Assembly (NCBI GenBank): GCA_945870185.1 | Contig: CAMBRK010000047.1 | Span: 1 to 33,874, forward strand | From: Aureispira sp. CCB-QB1 | Lineage (GTDB): Bacteria; Bacteroidota; Bacteroidia; Chitinophagales; Saprospiraceae | DNA length: 33,874 bases | Direction: 5' to 3' | In this document: one piece after another, positions 6,659 through 33,121 of the stretch | Layout of the letters: each line of letters begins with the position of its first letter | How positions within the stretch are numbered: position 1 is the first letter of the stretch | The notes under the pieces: model-generated | Told to the model about the DNA's origin: nothing | Seen by the model: the letters and a program-made list of their open reading frames with translations, nothing else | Databases searched by the model: none | Translations under genes and position numbers: made by a program

Positions 6659-9600
6659 TCAAATCCGCTCTACCAGAATATTTAAACTCACATCTTCTGT
6701 GATTTCGATACTTTCACCAGCTACGTCATCAAGGATCTCGATCGATTCACCCAATACTTCATTTTTGATATATGCTCCGTACTGATTTACCGCACTTCTG
6801 ATCATTTCATGATCTTGAATCTTGATAGCAATTTTATCTGTGACATTAAAATCACTTGACTTTCTGATATTCTGTATACGGTTTACCAATTCCCTAGCGA
6901 TACCTTCAGCTATGAGATCTTCCGTAAGATTGACGTCAAGTGCTACGGTAATATCCCTGTCTACAGCTACCTGCCATCCAGGTATCTCGTCAAAGCTGAT
7001 CTCTACATCTTCTGCGGTGATCATATATCGGTCGCCTTCAATCTCTAAGATATGCTGATTGGTTTTTTCTAGAGCAGTGATCGCCTTTTGATCCATTTCC
7101 TGTATGAGTTGAGCACCGGCTTTCATATGTTTGCCCAAGGTTTTTCCTAGGGTTTTGAAGTTGGCCTTGACTTTTTTATTGATAAAGCCAACAGTATCCG
7201 TGATATATTCTATCTCTTTTACGTTGACTTCCGAAAGTATCAACTCCTTGACCGCATCTACTTGGGTTATGAATTCAGGATTTAATATTGGCAACAGGAT
7301 TTTGGTCAGTGGCTGTCGTACCCTGTGACCTTCTTTCTTTCGGATAGACAATACTAATGAAGAAATGCGTTGTGCATAATCCATTCTTTGTTCCAAGTCC
7401 AAATCTATAGAAGCCAAATCATACGATGGGAAGTCAGCCAAGTGTACGGACTCATGAGTTTCCAATCCTGATGCTTCGTTAAGGTTTTTGTACAACCAAT
7501 CTCCAAACAATGGAGCTACCGGTGCCATGAGTTTTGCGATGGAAGACAAACATTCGTAAAGCGTCTGATAAGCAGCTATTTTGTCCTCACTATACTCACC
7601 TTTCCAGAATCTGCGACGACAAAGTCTTACATACCAATTGCTCAGGTGCTCGTCTACAAACGTCATTACTTTACGAGTAGCATTGGTAGGCTCATAGTCA
7701 CTGAGTTCTGCTTCCACATCTTCGATGAGCGAGTTTAATAGCGATATGATCCATCGGTCTATTTCTTGTCTTTTTTCTAAAGGAATACGCGCTTCTTTAT
7801 ATTCAAAGCCATCAATATTGGCATACAATGCAAAAAACGAATACGTATTGAACAAGGTTCCAAAAAACTTTCGTCTTACTTCATCGATACCTTCCAGGTC
7901 AAATTTGAGATTGTCCCAAGGCTGTGCATTGGATATCATATACCATCTGGTGGCATCAGCACCATATGTCGCGATGGTTTCGAATGGGTCAATGACGTTG
8001 CCTAGTCTCTTGGACATTTTAACACCGTTTTTGTCCAAGACTAGACCGTTGGAAACCACATTTTTGAAGGCTACATTTTCGAAAACCATACTAGCGATGG
8101 CATGCAATGTAAAGAACCATCCGCGAGTCTGGTCTACGCCTTCGGCAATGAAATCTGCAGGGAAAGTGATACCTTTTTCGATAAGGTCTTTGTTTTCCAT
8201 AGGATAATGCCACTGAGCATAAGGCATCGCACCAGAATCAAACCATACATCAATGAGGTCCAATTCTCTTTTCATAGGTTTGCCAGTGTTAGATACCAAA
8301 ATGATCTCATCAATATAAGGTCTATGCAGGTCTTTGGGTACAGATTGGTTTAACCCTAAAGCAGCATTTGCCTTAAAAATAGCTTGCTCCAAATCTGCTA
8401 TACTTGATATACATTGTTCTTCTGTAGTGTCATCAGTACGCCATATCGGCAATGGAATACCCCAATATCTGGATCTGGAAAGGTTCCAATCATTAAGGTT
8501 TTCGAGCCAATTGCCAAAACGCTTCTCACCCGTATGTGCCGGTTTCCAATTGATTGTTTTGTTAAGTTCGATCATTTTGTCTTTCATCGCTGTAGAGCGG
8601 ATAAACCAACTATCCAATGGATAATATAGCACAGGCTTATCAGTACGCCAACAATGTGGATAGTTGTGTACATACTTTTCTACTTTGAAAGCTTTATTTT
8701 CTTCTTTGAGTTTGATGGCAATTTCCACATCCACTGATCTTTCCGGAGCTTCTCCATCTTTATAATATTCATTCTTAACATACTTGCCACCTATTTCTTC
8801 AAGATCCGCTCTGAATTTTCCTTGCAAATCTACCAAAGGCACAGCATTTCCATTATCGTCCAATACCAACATAGGTGGTACTTCTGGATTGGCTTCTTTG
8901 GCTACTTTAGCATCATCTGCACCAAAAGTGGGTGCTGTATGTACTACTCCTGTACCATCTTCAGTAGTTACGAAACTTCCGCCTATAACTCTAAAAGCAT
9001 TTTCAGGGTTCTGATACGGTAAACTATATTTTAGTAATTGTTCGTATCGGATACCTATTAATTCTTCTCCCTTACATTCTGTGATAATAAAGTATGGTAT
9101 TTTTTTATCTGAAGTCTGATATGACAAAACAGCGTCAATAGATTCTGTTTTTTCATATTTTCCTGCAAATTGTTTTTCTACAAGAGCTTTGGCCAATATG
9201 ACATTTATAGGCTTGAAAGTATATTGATTGTATGTTTTTATCAAAACGTAATCGATCTTAGGACCTACTGTCAACGCAGTATTGGATGGAAGTGTCCATG
9301 GTGTAGTCGTCCAAGCCAATATGTAAATGTCTCCCTGGTCTTTTAAAAATTCTGGAAGTGTCTCTGGCTTTGTCAAAAACTGAGCTACCACTGTAGTATC
9401 CGTAACATCTTTGTAGCACCCAGGTTGGTTCAATTCGTGCGAACTCAAACCCGTGCCTGCAGCAGGTGAGTATGGTTGTATGGTATATCCTTTGTACAAG
9501 AGGTTTTTTTGATAAAGCTGTCCCAAAAGCCACCAAACAGACTCTATATATTCATTATTAAAGGTAATGTATGGATTGTCCAGATCAACCCAATAACCCA

Positions 9601-10018
9601 TTTTTCTGGTGATATCATCCCAAAGGTCTTTGTATTGCATGACGGTTTCACGACACTTGGCATTATATTCGTCTACAGTGATCTTGGTACCGATATCTTC
9701 TTTAGTGATGCCTAGTTCTTTTTCTACAGAAAGCTCTATCGGAAGTCCATGAGTATCCCATCCACCTTTTCGCTCTACGCGCTTACCTTTCATGGTCTGA
9801 AAACGGCAAAAAATATCTTTTACAGTCCTACCCATCACGTGGTGAATACCAGGTTTACCATTGGCTGATGGTGGTCCTTCAAAGAAGACAAATGAATTGT
9901 CCTTTGATCTTTGGTCTACACTTTTTTGGAAGATTTTTTGGTCTTCCCAAAACTGTCGGATGTGCTTATCTATCTGTGGAAGATTGAGTTGTTTAAGATC
10001 GTCATTATATTTTGCCAT
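6659..10018 (-). CDS. ileS: Isoleucyl-tRNA synthetase, type 2, with swapped HIGH motif
   Basis: Charges tRNA-Ile. The 1119 residues and the long C-terminal part ending in a DVNLTEDLIAEGIARELVNR block without the zinc-ribbon cysteines mark it as the eukaryote-like IleRS2 class. Visible landmarks are the CP1 editing domain (WTTTPWTLPSN at 236-246, GTGVVHTAP at 355-363), DVWFDSG (590-596) and KMSKR (667-671). The HIGH signature is altered: residues 57-60 read Gly-Ile-His-His (GKPGIHHVMG), the first and third positions being exchanged. Codons at 9839-9850 confirm this on the DNA. In published IleRS2 work this GXHH form gives extreme mupirocin resistance while keeping activity. It is the only ileS in the window; whether the genome has a second one cannot be seen. 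Confidence 0.97.
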   Translation of the reverse strand: MAKYNDDLKQLNLPQIDKHIRQFWEDQKIFQKSVDQRSKDNSFVFFEGPPSANGKPGIHHVMGRTVKDIFCRFQTMKGKRVERKGGWDTHGLPIELSVEKELGITKEDIGTKITVDEYNAKCRETVMQYKDLWDDITRKMGYWVDLDNPYITFNNEYIESVWWLLGQLYQKNLLYKGYTIQPYSPAAGTGLSSHELNQPGCYKDVTDTTVVAQFLTKPETLPEFLKDQGDIYILAWTTTPWTLPSNTALTVGPKIDYVLIKTYNQYTFKPINVILAKALVEKQFAGKYEKTESIDAVLSYQTSDKKIPYFIITECKGEELIGIRYEQLLKYSLPYQNPENAFRVIGGSFVTTEDGTGVVHTAPTFGADDAKVAKEANPEVPPMLVLDDNGNAVPLVDLQGKFRADLEEIGGKYVKNEYYKDGEAPERSVDVEIAIKLKEENKAFKVEKYVHNYPHCWRTDKPVLYYPLDSWFIRSTAMKDKMIELNKTINWKPAHTGEKRFGNWLENLNDWNLSRSRYWGIPLPIWRTDDTTEEQCISSIADLEQAIFKANAALGLNQSVPKDLHRPYIDEIILVSNTGKPMKRELDLIDVWFDSGAMPYAQWHYPMENKDLIEKGITFPADFIAEGVDQTRGWFFTLHAIASMVFENVAFKNVVSNGLVLDKNGVKMSKRLGNVIDPFETIATYGADATRWYMISNAQPWDNLKFDLEGIDEVRRKFFGTLFNTYSFFALYANIDGFEYKEARIPLEKRQEIDRWIISLLNSLIEDVEAELSDYEPTNATRKVMTFVDEHLSNWYVRLCRRRFWKGEYSEDKIAAYQTLYECLSSIAKLMAPVAPLFGDWLYKNLNEASGLETHESVHLADFPSYDLASIDLDLEQRMDYAQRISSLVLSIRKKEGHRVRQPLTKILLPILNPEFITQVDAVKELILSEVNVKEIEYITDTVGFINKKVKANFKTLGKTLGKHMKAGAQLIQEMDQKAITALEKTNQHILEIEGDRYMITAEDVEISFDEIPGWQVAVDRDITVALDVNLTEDLIAEGIARELVNRIQNIRKSSDFNVTDKIAIKIQDHEMIRSAVNQYGAYIKNEVLGESIEILDDVAGESIEITEDVSLNILVERI

Positions 10019-21764: not shown

Positions 21765-22112
21765 ATGGATGGTAAAAAGTTCAGAAAGGTTATTTATTAC
21801 AAGAGTTACTTTAGAGATTTTTTAAAGGCACAAACAATCAATGTAAAAAAGAAAATAATTTGGACTCTTGAACTTATAGAAGATATTGAAAAAGTTCAGG
21901 AAACTTATTTAAAACATATATCAGGAACAGACGGGCTTTATGAAATAAGAATAAATATTGGAACCAATACCTATCGAATCTTTTGCTTTTTCGCAGAAGA
22001 TAAGCTAGTAGTTCTTATGAATTCATTTCAGAAGAAAACCCAGAAAACTCCCAAATCAGAAATTCAAAAACCAGTAAAATTAAAAGCAGGATATGAACAA
22101 GAAAATAAATAA
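21765..22112 (+). CDS. higB: HigB-like (Gp49/RelE superfamily) toxin
   Basis: A 115-residue protein of the phage Gp49-like HigB family, ribosome-dependent mRNA endonucleases that stop translation. YYKSYFRDFLKAQ and KKKIIWTLELIED open the fold, LKHISGTDGLYEIRI and TYRIFCFFAEDKLVVLMNSF are the conserved sheet, and FQKKTQKTP is the basic tail. The antitoxin gene overlaps its end by 20 bases, the toxin-first order typical of higBA. It looks intact. Confidence 0.9.
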   Translation: MDGKKFRKVIYYKSYFRDFLKAQTINVKKKIIWTLELIEDIEKVQETYLKHISGTDGLYEIRINIGTNTYRIFCFFAEDKLVVLMNSFQKKTQKTPKSEIQKPVKLKAGYEQENK

Positions 22113-22401
22113 TACAGGGACATTAGAAGATTTGAAAGAAGAGTTTTTCGGAAAAAAAGGAACAAAAGAAAGACTTGAACTTGAAGAAGGTTATATTAAC
22201 TTCAAGATAGGTATGATGCTTCAAGATGAAAGGCTAAAACAAGGATTGACGCAGCAAGAATTAGCTGATAAAGTTGGTACCACCAAATCTTATATTTCGA
22301 AAATTGAAAATAGTGTAAAAGAAGCAAGAATTTCTACATTAGAAAAGATAGTGCGATATGGTTTTGGGGGAGAACTTGAGATAAAAATAAAATTGAACTA
22401 A
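22093..22401 (+). CDS. higA: HigA-like XRE antitoxin
   Basis: A 102-residue protein with a Cro/C1 helix-turn-helix: RLKQGLTQQELADKVGTTKS YISKIENS (about residues 52-77). Antitoxins of this type bind and inhibit the upstream HigB toxin and repress their own promoter, here the one at 21730-21760. The N-terminal third is charged and may wrap the toxin. It starts inside the last codons of the toxin gene, indicating coupled translation. Confidence 0.88.
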   Translation: MNKKINNTGTLEDLKEEFFGKKGTKERLELEEGYINFKIGMMLQDERLKQGLTQQELADKVGTTKSYISKIENSVKEARISTLEKIVRYGFGGELEIKIKLN

Positions 22402-30361: not shown

Positions 30362-32410
30362 ATGAAGTTACAGAATTTTGCTCTCGGAAAGTGGATAGAA
30401 GGATCCGGTGAAGGTCAAATACTTTATGATGCCAGTACAGGTACAGCAGTAGCCACAGCTAGTAGTCATGGACTGGATTTTGAAGAAATGCTTAATTATG
30501 GTCGTAAAGTAGGTAACAAAAATTTACGAAACATGACCTTCCAGGAGCGAGGCAGGATGCTCAAAGCACTAGCTCTCTATCTGATGGATCGCAAAGAAAA
30601 GTATTATGAAGTAAGCTATAAAACTGGAGCTACACGCATCGACTCATGGATAGATATAGAAGGTGGTATTGGCAATCTATTTGCCAATGCTAGTCTACGG
30701 CGTAAATTTCCTGATCTCCCTTACTATACAGAAGGCGATCCCGTAGGCCTCAGTAAAGGTGGTACATTTATGGGGCATCACATCTTGGTACCCAAAGAAG
30801 GTGTAGCCGTCCATATCAATGCTTTTAACTTTCCCGTATGGGGTATGCTAGAAAAATGTGCCGTCAATTGGCTTGCTGGAATGCCTGCCATTGTAAAACC
30901 TGCTACCTTGACATCATTTGTTACCGAAGCAGTTGTGAAAGATATCATTGATTCAGGTATATTGCCAGAAGGAGCACTTCAATTGATTTGTGGTAGTGCA
31001 CGTACCATTCTCGATCATGTCAATTATCAGGATGTAGTCACTTTTACGGGATCTGCCAGTACCGGTATCATGCTCAAGTCCAATCCCAATATCATCCGTG
31101 AAGCCGTACCATTCAATATGGAAGCTGACTCGCTCAATAGTATCATTTTGGGTAAGGATGCCGCACCAGGCACCCCAGAATTTGATCTTTTCATCAAAGA
31201 AGTCAGAAAGGAAATGACCATCAAATGTGGTCAAAAATGTACTGCAGTCCGTAGGATTATCGTGCCTGCTGATTATATGGAAGATGTACAAATTGCCATT
31301 GGCAAATCACTCACAGGGCTAGCTATAGGCGATCCACGTACAGAAGGCGTACGCATGGGCGCGCTTGCAGGACAAGAGCAAGTGAAGGAAGTAAAGGATA
31401 AACTTAGCGAACTGATGTCATTTTCACAATTAGTGTATGGTGATGTGGAGAGTTTTGAAGTCACTCATGGTAGCAAAGACAAAGGTGCCTACATGGCACC
31501 CATTTTATTGAGAAATGACCATCCTTTCGAACAAATAGGAACGCACGAAATCGAAGCTTTTGGTCCGGTGTCTACGATGATGCCTTATCATGACCTGGAT
31601 GAAGCGATAGAGTTGGCCAGAAAAGGAAAAGGTTCGCTTTGCAGTTCTATCGTCACCTTTGATGATAAAATTGCTCGTGAATATGTAGTAAATGCTGCCA
31701 CACACCATGGTAGAATTTTAGTGCTCAATAGAGAATCTGCCAAAGAAAGTACTGGACATGGTTCGCCTATGCCCTTATTGGTACATGGTGGACCAGGTAG
31801 AGCTGGAGGTGGCGAAGAAATGGGTGGAATGCGTGGAGTAAAACACTATATGCAGCGATGCGCCATTCAAGGTACGCCTACCACACTATCTCACATCACC
31901 CAACAATATCAGTACGGCGGGAAATATATCGAAGACGTCAAACATCCATTTAAAAAATACTTTGAAGAGCTGGAAATTGGCGAAACACTGATCACACACA
32001 AACGTACGGTCACTGATGCCGATATCGTCAATTTTGCCAATGTCTCTTGGGACCATTTCTACGCACACACGGATGCTACATCTCTAGAGGGGACACCGTT
32101 TACACAAAGAGTGGCACATGGATATTTTGTGTTGTCAGCTGCCGCAGGTCTATTTGTAGATGCTGCCAAAGGACCTGTAATGCTCAATTATGGCTTGGAA
32201 GAGTGTCGTTTTACTAAACCCGTTTATCCAGGTATGACCATAGGCGTAAGACTTACTGTCAAAGAGAAAGTAGCACAGGAAAAAAGAGAAGACGAAGATT
32301 ACATCAAAGGTATCGTCAAATGGCTAGTAGATGTCTATGATGAAACGGGTGAAACAGTAGCGATTGCAACAATATTGACGATGGTGAAGATGAGAGGGGT
32401 AAGGAAATAG
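30362..32410 (+). CDS. paaZ: PaaZ-like bifunctional aldehyde dehydrogenase / enoyl-CoA hydratase
   Basis: Two-domain ring-cleaving enzyme of aerobic phenylacetate breakdown: the C-terminal MaoC-like half opens the oxepin-CoA ring and the N-terminal half oxidises the resulting aldehyde. The 682 residues match E. coli PaaZ. The dehydrogenase active residues are Glu254 (FNMEADSLN) and Cys293 (CGQKCTAVRR); the hydratase residues are Asp564 and His569 in SWDHFYAHTD. No other paa genes are in the window. Its last 29 or so codons (649-677) have an 81% identical copy at 33028-33111. I see no clear promoter; TACCTTCG at 30329-30336 is one base off the -7 consensus. Confidence 0.93.
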   Translation: MKLQNFALGKWIEGSGEGQILYDASTGTAVATASSHGLDFEEMLNYGRKVGNKNLRNMTFQERGRMLKALALYLMDRKEKYYEVSYKTGATRIDSWIDIEGGIGNLFANASLRRKFPDLPYYTEGDPVGLSKGGTFMGHHILVPKEGVAVHINAFNFPVWGMLEKCAVNWLAGMPAIVKPATLTSFVTEAVVKDIIDSGILPEGALQLICGSARTILDHVNYQDVVTFTGSASTGIMLKSNPNIIREAVPFNMEADSLNSIILGKDAAPGTPEFDLFIKEVRKEMTIKCGQKCTAVRRIIVPADYMEDVQIAIGKSLTGLAIGDPRTEGVRMGALAGQEQVKEVKDKLSELMSFSQLVYGDVESFEVTHGSKDKGAYMAPILLRNDHPFEQIGTHEIEAFGPVSTMMPYHDLDEAIELARKGKGSLCSSIVTFDDKIAREYVVNAATHHGRILVLNRESAKESTGHGSPMPLLVHGGPGRAGGGEEMGGMRGVKHYMQRCAIQGTPTTLSHITQQYQYGGKYIEDVKHPFKKYFEELEIGETLITHKRTVTDADIVNFANVSWDHFYAHTDATSLEGTPFTQRVAHGYFVLSAAAGLFVDAAKGPVMLNYGLEECRFTKPVYPGMTIGVRLTVKEKVAQEKREDEDYIKGIVKWLVDVYDETGETVAIATILTMVKMRGVRK

Positions 32411-32470: not shown

Positions 32471-33121
32471 AGTAAAAACAAATGCAAATACGAAATATTA
32501 TTATATTAAGTAGGCAGAAATAAAACAGAAGTATCCGTTTACTTTGAGAAAGGTAGCTTTTGGCTTACACAGAAAGCGATGGCCATACTGTTTAATGCGC
32601 AAGTACCCGCTATCAGTAAGCATTAAAAAAATATTTTTGAAAGCCAAGAACTTGAAGAAAATTCAGTTATTTCCATTTTGGAAACAACTGCCGAGGATGG
32701 CAAAAAATATGATACAAAATTCTATCGCCTAGAAGCCATACTGGCAGTAGGGTATAGAGTCAATTCTACCCAAGCTACTGATTTTCGCAAATGGGCTACG
32801 ACTACACTCAACGAATTTATCATCAAGGGATTTGTATTGGACGATGACCGTTTGAAACAAGGTTTAAACTTTGGTCAGGACTTTTTTGATGAATTACTCG
32901 AGCGGATTAGAGAAATAAGATCCAGCGAACGTAGGTTTTATCAGAAAATTACAGATTTATATGCTTTGAGCACCGATTATGATAAAAATAGTCAACAAAC
33001 CAAAGACTTTTTTGCAGCCGTACGTAAAGGTATTGTCAAATGGCTCTTAGATGTCTATGACCAAGCTGGTGCGACAGCAGCCATTGCGACTATTTTGACA
33101 ATGGTGATGATGAAGGAGTAA
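32471..33121 (+). pseudogene. RhuM-like gene, broken and fused to a copy of the paaZ tail
   Basis: One frame reads like a RhuM family protein (COG3943, often in mobile or virulence-linked regions): TEVSVYFEKGSFWLTQKAMA, NAQVPAISKH, FESQELEENSVISILETTAE, KFYRLEAILAVGYRVNS and FRKWATTTLNEFIIKGFVLD. Two in-frame TAA codons interrupt it, at 32507-32509 (a Gln to stop by the family pattern) and 32624-32626 (a Leu to stop); from 32678 it is open to the end. After TKDFFAAV it switches to RKGIVKWLLDVYDQAGATAA and IATILTMVMMKE, a paaZ-like C-terminus. The intact RhuM end is missing. It is dead as RhuM, though the frame from 32678 could still be translated. Confidence 0.75.
33028..33121 (+). repeat. 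Diverged direct copy of the paaZ 3' end
   Basis: Bases 33028-33111 match 32309-32392 of paaZ at 68 of 84 positions (81%) without gaps, and the translations share 22 of 28 residues. Most differences fall at third codon positions, so this copy evolved as coding DNA before being captured. It points to a paralogous or foreign paaZ, not a recent local duplication. Confidence 0.75.

Follow-up and report, generated by a model that had tools for sequence, protein, structure and literature searches.

Replacement of the class I signature HXGH by GXHH in type 2 isoleucyl-tRNA synthetases (IleRS2) was linked to mupirocin hyper-resistance in work published in 2023 (PMC10485003), and the mechanism considered here is therefore not new; a first-pass annotation of the DNA studied below had cited this link as known, and that paper indeed contains it. 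By its counts, 86 IleRS2 carry G/AXHH and 77 HXGH, while the swap occurs in none of the type 1 enzymes (IleRS1), which it inactivates. The IleRS2 motif is described there as shifted: the histidine at the third position replaces the catalytic first histidine, the adenine still fits, and this third-position histidine is said to clash with mupirocin. The IleRS2 of D. radiodurans, with ALHH, has a mupirocin Ki of 6.6 mM that falls 823-fold upon change to HVGH, and introduction of GVHH raises the Ki from 0.20 to 35 uM in T. thermophilus IleRS2 and from 1.08 to 460 uM in P. megaterium IleRS2 (PMC10485003).

The enzyme studied here is encoded in a stretch of 33,874 nucleotides from Aureispira sp. CCB-QB1, hereafter the window. 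Like the G/AXHH IleRS2 of D. radiodurans (ALHH) and Streptomyces griseus as described in PMC10485003, it shows an exchange between signature positions 1 and 3 and keeps a KMSKS-type loop and the editing domain; it differs from them in coming from Bacteroidota, in carrying GIHH and KMSKR, and in being known from sequence alone. The canonical IleRS2 of P. megaterium (PDB 8c8u/8c8v) and T. thermophilus (1ile) resemble it in their other motifs, with identities of 44% over the P. megaterium segment compared and 41% over residues 1-246 of the T. thermophilus segment, but have HVGH in place of GIHH and the micromolar Ki values given above (1.08 and 0.20 uM, respectively; PMC10485003). E. coli IleRS1 shares the reaction, the class I fold and the editing domain with the window enzyme, but has HIGH, Tyr59 and NKIL and is of the mupirocin-sensitive type that, according to the same source, does not tolerate the swap. 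The MupA and MupB IleRS2 (NF000257 and NF000258) are a related family, matched at 758.7 and 770.7 bits; these scores lie far under the 1900-bit cut-off, and the gene in the window is a housekeeping gene rather than an acquired second copy. An acquired MupA/MupB-type gene was rejected on these cut-offs. As set out below, the observation of a swapped signature is correct and the phenomenon already published; it is the phylum that is special, and not the organism.

The ileS gene and its signature motif

The ileS open reading frame lies on the minus strand, starts with ATG, contains no internal stops and encodes a full-length protein of 1119 residues. Its features are as follows.

6659 to 10018, minus strand: ileS, type 2 isoleucyl-tRNA synthetase (IleRS2), 1119 residues; open reading frame, TIGR00392, best PDB match 8c8w
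9839 to 9850, minus strand: GIHH signature motif, codons and residues 57-60; aligned to HVGH/HIGH
9281 to 9310, minus strand: TTTPWTLPSN, threonine-rich editing-domain peptide, residues 237-246; one residue off E. coli 241-250
8903 to 8950, minus strand: editing-site motif GVVHTAPTFGADDAKV, residues 357-372; aligned on E. coli IleRS 330-345
8195 to 8209, minus strand: HYPME, residues 604-608, at the position of the IleRS2 signature HYPFE (PMC4861432); from alignment
8006 to 8020, minus strand: KMSKR, second class I signature (KMSKS); from alignment
7304 to 7759, minus strand: anticodon-binding domain PF08264, residues 754-905; from Pfam
6665 to 7246, minus strand: C-terminal DUF5915, PF19302, residues 925-1118; from Pfam

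The reverse complement of 9839-9850 reads GGTATTCACCAC (GGT ATT CAC CAC) and encodes Gly-Ile-His-His. In HMMER and MAFFT alignments, this GIHH falls on HVGH in both P. megaterium IleRS2 (8c8u/8c8v) and T. thermophilus IleRS (1ile), and on HIGH in E. coli IleRS; the flanking columns are gap-free in the alignments with solved IleRS, and the placement is consistent between a 24-row alignment and the alignment with E. coli ileS. The first-pass annotation had put GIHH at codons 57-60, exactly on the class I HxGH site, had named a different true HxGH elsewhere as what would speak against this, and had described KMSKR and the editing domain as kept. Alignments with IleRS1 and IleRS2 agree on the placement, those to P. 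megaterium, T. thermophilus and E. coli reveal no rival HxGH for the signature site in the window enzyme, and KMSKR is present together with the editing-domain motifs TTTPWTLPSN and GVVHTAPTFGADD. That the motif is a sequencing error or a misalignment, with the true HxGH elsewhere, is a reading of negligible probability for which we found no supporting point: the adjacent GPPSANG and VKD stretches align position by position, and the same GIHH stands at the same place in seven same-genus genomes (near-full-length matches, 79-85% identity), which argues against error and chance alike.

The protein belongs to the ileS family TIGR00392, with 977 bits against a curated cut-off of 621.4. Its best PDB match is 8c8w, a P. 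megaterium IleRS2 entry carrying GVHH (E 1.5e-232), strong enough to settle the fold. The window protein scores 778 bits against solved P. megaterium IleRS2 and at most 294 bits against solved IleRS1. Tyr59 and NKIL (E. coli numbering), given as IleRS1 signatures in PMC4861432, are absent, Ser51 and GRTV standing in their place, and HYPFE, given there as the IleRS2 signature, is present at the right position with one substitution as HYPME; a relative of 79% identity (L140) also has HYPME, and one of 65% (L141) has HYPFE. A quick tree built without the motif columns groups the window enzyme with P. megaterium IleRS2 and with further GXHH enzymes in a set of 22 rows (SH-aLRT 99). Because the method is quick and IleRS1 is represented by just one row, on a long branch, this tree by itself tests the enzyme type weakly. 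Glycine at position 1 and histidine at position 3 of the signature place the enzyme in the G/AXHH group. Judged by these signatures and similarities, the protein is a GXHH-swapped IleRS2, as the first-pass annotation had claimed, lacking the IleRS1 signatures and closer to solved IleRS2 than to solved IleRS1.

A count of ileS genes, proposed in that annotation as a check, gave a single match above the TIGR00392 cut-off in the window genome (4.9 Mb, 99% complete). The remaining matches reach at most 210 bits and lie in frames of 881, 948 and 734 residues, which we take as ValRS, LeuRS and MetRS, respectively. The published loss of IleRS1 activity upon the swap (PMC10485003) might suggest a degenerate or moonlighting paralogue, with tRNA charging performed by another enzyme. 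This is very improbable given the lone ileS-grade match in so complete a genome, the presence of the editing, KMSKR, anticodon-binding and C-terminal parts, and strong conservation in relatives, and we rejected it on the single match and the remaining motifs. We instead favor, with a probability of roughly 0.87, the reading that ileS here is a housekeeping gene and, judging from the assembly, encodes the sole IleRS of the organism, a Bacteroidota IleRS2 whose GXHH swap would make the target insensitive to mupirocin.

Fixation of GXHH across the phylum

The first-pass annotation had called the signature otherwise nearly invariant. This is misleading in view of the IleRS2 counts in PMC10485003 (86 G/AXHH versus 77 HXGH) and of the phylum itself, where GXHH stands in 240 of 240 genomes read. 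These represent 248 loci reduced to 240 distinct stretches, one per genome, with GIHH at 225 of the 248 loci, GVHH at 20 and GLHH at three. They were gathered over search rounds contributing 28 of 30 genomes (the window genome included), 29, 40 regions, 24 new, 30, 29 new and 60, from overlapping searches of the phylum (296 genomes, 295 with a match) and the class (296 genomes, 291 with a match), of which a part was read. The sample is not random, the loci being best matches and the regions picked to span many families; two fetched phylum loci (L025 and L030) lack the N-terminus, so that their motif is not readable.

A second scan, of named genomes, used patterns that exclude the motif itself ([AG]GWDTHGL and [AVI]WTTTPWT), and found GXHH in all 77 readable loci among the best 80; it is silent on distant IleRS2 because only these best 80 matches were taken. 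The GXHH loci among them include Flavobacterium, Tenacibaculum, Prevotella, Dysgonomonas, Hymenobacter and Ignavibacteria records, and seven carry titles from outside the phylum (L209, L213 and L215-L219). The phylum and named sets overlap in two loci (L140 = L010 and L206 = L096/L114), so that their counts are not additive, and L215 is the same locus as L251 of the Chloroflexota set described below. The nearest named loci among the best 80, from which records very near the window genome may be omitted, belong to a Chitinophagales MAG (79%) and a Saprospiraceae MAG (65%), and the earlier assignment of the DNA to Bacteroidota therefore holds. One record of the named set, L209, is titled as an Oceanococcus MAG and has an IleRS2 with GVHH that nests among the sequences of the window's phylum in the quick tree and also in the careful tree described below; it may carry a wrong record label or reflect gene transfer.

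The single copy is likewise general. Scoring the top three candidates per genome, 290 of the 296 genomes of the class sample have exactly one ileS-grade match (E <=1e-120), five have none and one, G510, an assembly of 460 contigs, has two. We also applied TIGR00392 to 33 phylum genomes, namely 30 with two earlier matches (a part of the two-match phylum genomes), two in which a single, weaker match had been seen, and G205, which had shown no match. The second match scores 258-293 bits in 28 of the 33, in frames of 887-946 residues that we take as ValRS; in two others it proves to be part of one split gene together with the first match, two have a single match, and G205 again has none. G205 is 100% complete by its listing and yielded no ileS by protein or profile search, which is probably an assembly gap.

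Every motif read in the window's phylum is thus GXHH, which is ordinary there: with 240 of 240 genomes, 77 of 77 named loci and a single ileS-grade match in 290 of 296 genomes, it is a fixed trait of the group and not of the organism.

Expected consequences for mupirocin

Onto the motif, the type 2 identity, the single copy and the fixation across the relatives read, which are direct observations, catalysis by His59 and resistance may be transferred by homology from other IleRS2. We suggest that His59, at the third position, would stand in for the absent first histidine, which would be workable if the motif is shifted away from the adenine as in the described IleRS2, and that the bulky His59 would clash with mupirocin and lead to a very high Ki. 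The swap is an old trait, fixed in the phylum as sampled and most simply explained by vertical inheritance. Because the swap is old and fixed in the phylum and the histidine is expected to clash with mupirocin, target-level insensitivity of the organism is predicted, and the intrinsic resistance proposed in the first-pass annotation is likewise a prediction; outer-membrane permeability could be a further factor. The size of the Ki is not transferable to the window enzyme, because the effect reported in PMC10485003 varies with the enzyme background (35 uM for the T. thermophilus IleRS2 mutant versus 6.6 mM for D. radiodurans IleRS2). Our literature search found no published Ki or MIC for this enzyme and, among listings and abstracts, no paper connecting Bacteroidota with GXHH, or with mupirocin insensitivity through this motif. 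The words Bacteroidetes and Bacteroidota are absent from the main text of PMC10485003, and the phylum may well be in its source-data tree.

Fixation of this kind also bears on why the swap arose. A trait that all 240 genomes share could have become locked in long ago, just as it could have resistance as its cause, and we consider it possible, at slightly under even odds, that the swap is no resistance adaptation at all: it would have been fixed ancestrally by drift or active-site coupling, with insensitivity as a by-product. This alternative concerns the reason for the swap and not the identity of the enzyme, so that its odds overlap with those of our main reading. It draws on the lack of exceptions both in the 240 genomes of the phylum and in the 77 named loci, and on the gut and rumen lineages among the GXHH loci, as judged from record titles, for which exposure to a Pseudomonas antibiotic is presumably not obvious. 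Against it stand the very large and specific Ki effect reported in PMC10485003 and the canonical forms found among GXHH relatives in Chloroflexota, where the state is evidently not locked.

Under our main reading of a housekeeping IleRS2, the published swap is the normal IleRS state of a large phylum as sampled. Target-level mupirocin insensitivity is therefore expected there by default, and such ileS genes in resistome surveys should therefore not be scored as acquired resistance, nor should annotators mark GXHH as a defective catalytic site. The parts most worth keeping are this phylum-wide lock and the exceptions in Chloroflexota.

Possible signature switches in Chloroflexota

We searched 121 genomes of Chloroflexota, the phylum of a Thermoflexus genome, and took 110 loci from the 115 with a match. 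The first reading covered 108 of the 110 loci and gave 104 G/AXHH, two HIGH and two HYGH; five more genomes (two whose loci were missing earlier and three without a match at first) all have GXHH, for a total of 109 G/AXHH in the 113 genomes read. One of the genes from these five genomes, in G339, has a stop within its frame. The HYGH enzymes (L297 and L301) sit on their own long branch in the quick tree, whereas the HIGH enzymes, L250 (G418) and L264 (G425), lie among GXHH enzymes, each being the sole ileS above the cut-off in its genome.

We compared a careful tree (45 rows thinned from 75, motif columns excluded) with the quick tree (57 rows). In the careful tree, L250 lies within a supported 15-row set (100/98) whose 14 other members have GXHH, and L264 lies apart from it, at an unresolved fork with T. 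thermophilus. Four state changes are needed on this tree, three of them forced by supported branches, and six on the quick tree, five of them forced. AU tests reject a clade of L250 with L264 (p = 0.012) and a grouping of both with T. thermophilus (p = 0.0067) and do not reject T. thermophilus with L264 (p = 0.39), p values that are weakened because these groupings were defined once the tree was already known. In a shuffle control, 500 of 500 shuffles on the careful tree gave as few changes as observed (mean 3.9 versus 4), as did 103 of 500 on the quick tree; the change count is therefore no statistic by itself, the canonical label being as scattered as a random one. By our own count, one gain with three reversions makes four steps and parallel gains make five, and the data fit either reversions or remnants with parallel gains.

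PMC10485003 states at least two gains and one reversion, the latter in Deinococcus-Thermus, and L250 and L264 suggest switches beyond those. We tentatively propose, giving the idea a little less than an even chance, that the IleRS2 signature is a two-state switch, repeatedly flipped in some lineages such as Chloroflexota and locked in others, as GXHH is in the window's phylum. If the Chloroflexota exceptions are confirmed, they offer natural material on swapping a catalytic signature back and forth in an essential enzyme, and, if the two-state switch is real, natural pairs of related enzymes in which to gauge the cost, reversibility and resistance value of the swap.

The Chloroflexota enzymes also vary at the X position, described as hydrophobic in PMC10485003: threonine occurs there as GTHH in L251 (the locus shared with the named set), L294, L295 and L298 and as ATHH in L296, L324, L325 and L328. 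A second deep GXHH group (with loci such as L302, L313, L326, L333 and L360) has the context DGP(I/M)TANNPMGVHHAWGR in place of EGPPTANGxPGIHHV, and is perhaps the minor IleRS2 clade mentioned in PMC10485003.

Surroundings of ileS in the window

By Pfam, the genes around ileS belong mostly to housekeeping families, and no biosynthetic cluster appears among the 29 window open reading frames considered (ileS included; shorter and overlapping frames left out). Scanning the window for Rfam families and tRNAs gave no hits. A Gp49-like/DUF891 protein (21765-22112, plus strand) is followed by an overlapping HTH_3 protein (22093-22401, plus strand), a pair that we take to resemble a toxin-antitoxin system of the HigB-HigA type. 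The frame at 32678-33121 (plus strand) matches the first half of the RhuM profile only (positions 7-124 of 252), and that at 30362-32410 (plus strand) encodes an aldehyde dehydrogenase fused to a MaoC-like dehydratase domain, presumably the arrangement of PaaZ-type phenylacetate ring-opening enzymes.
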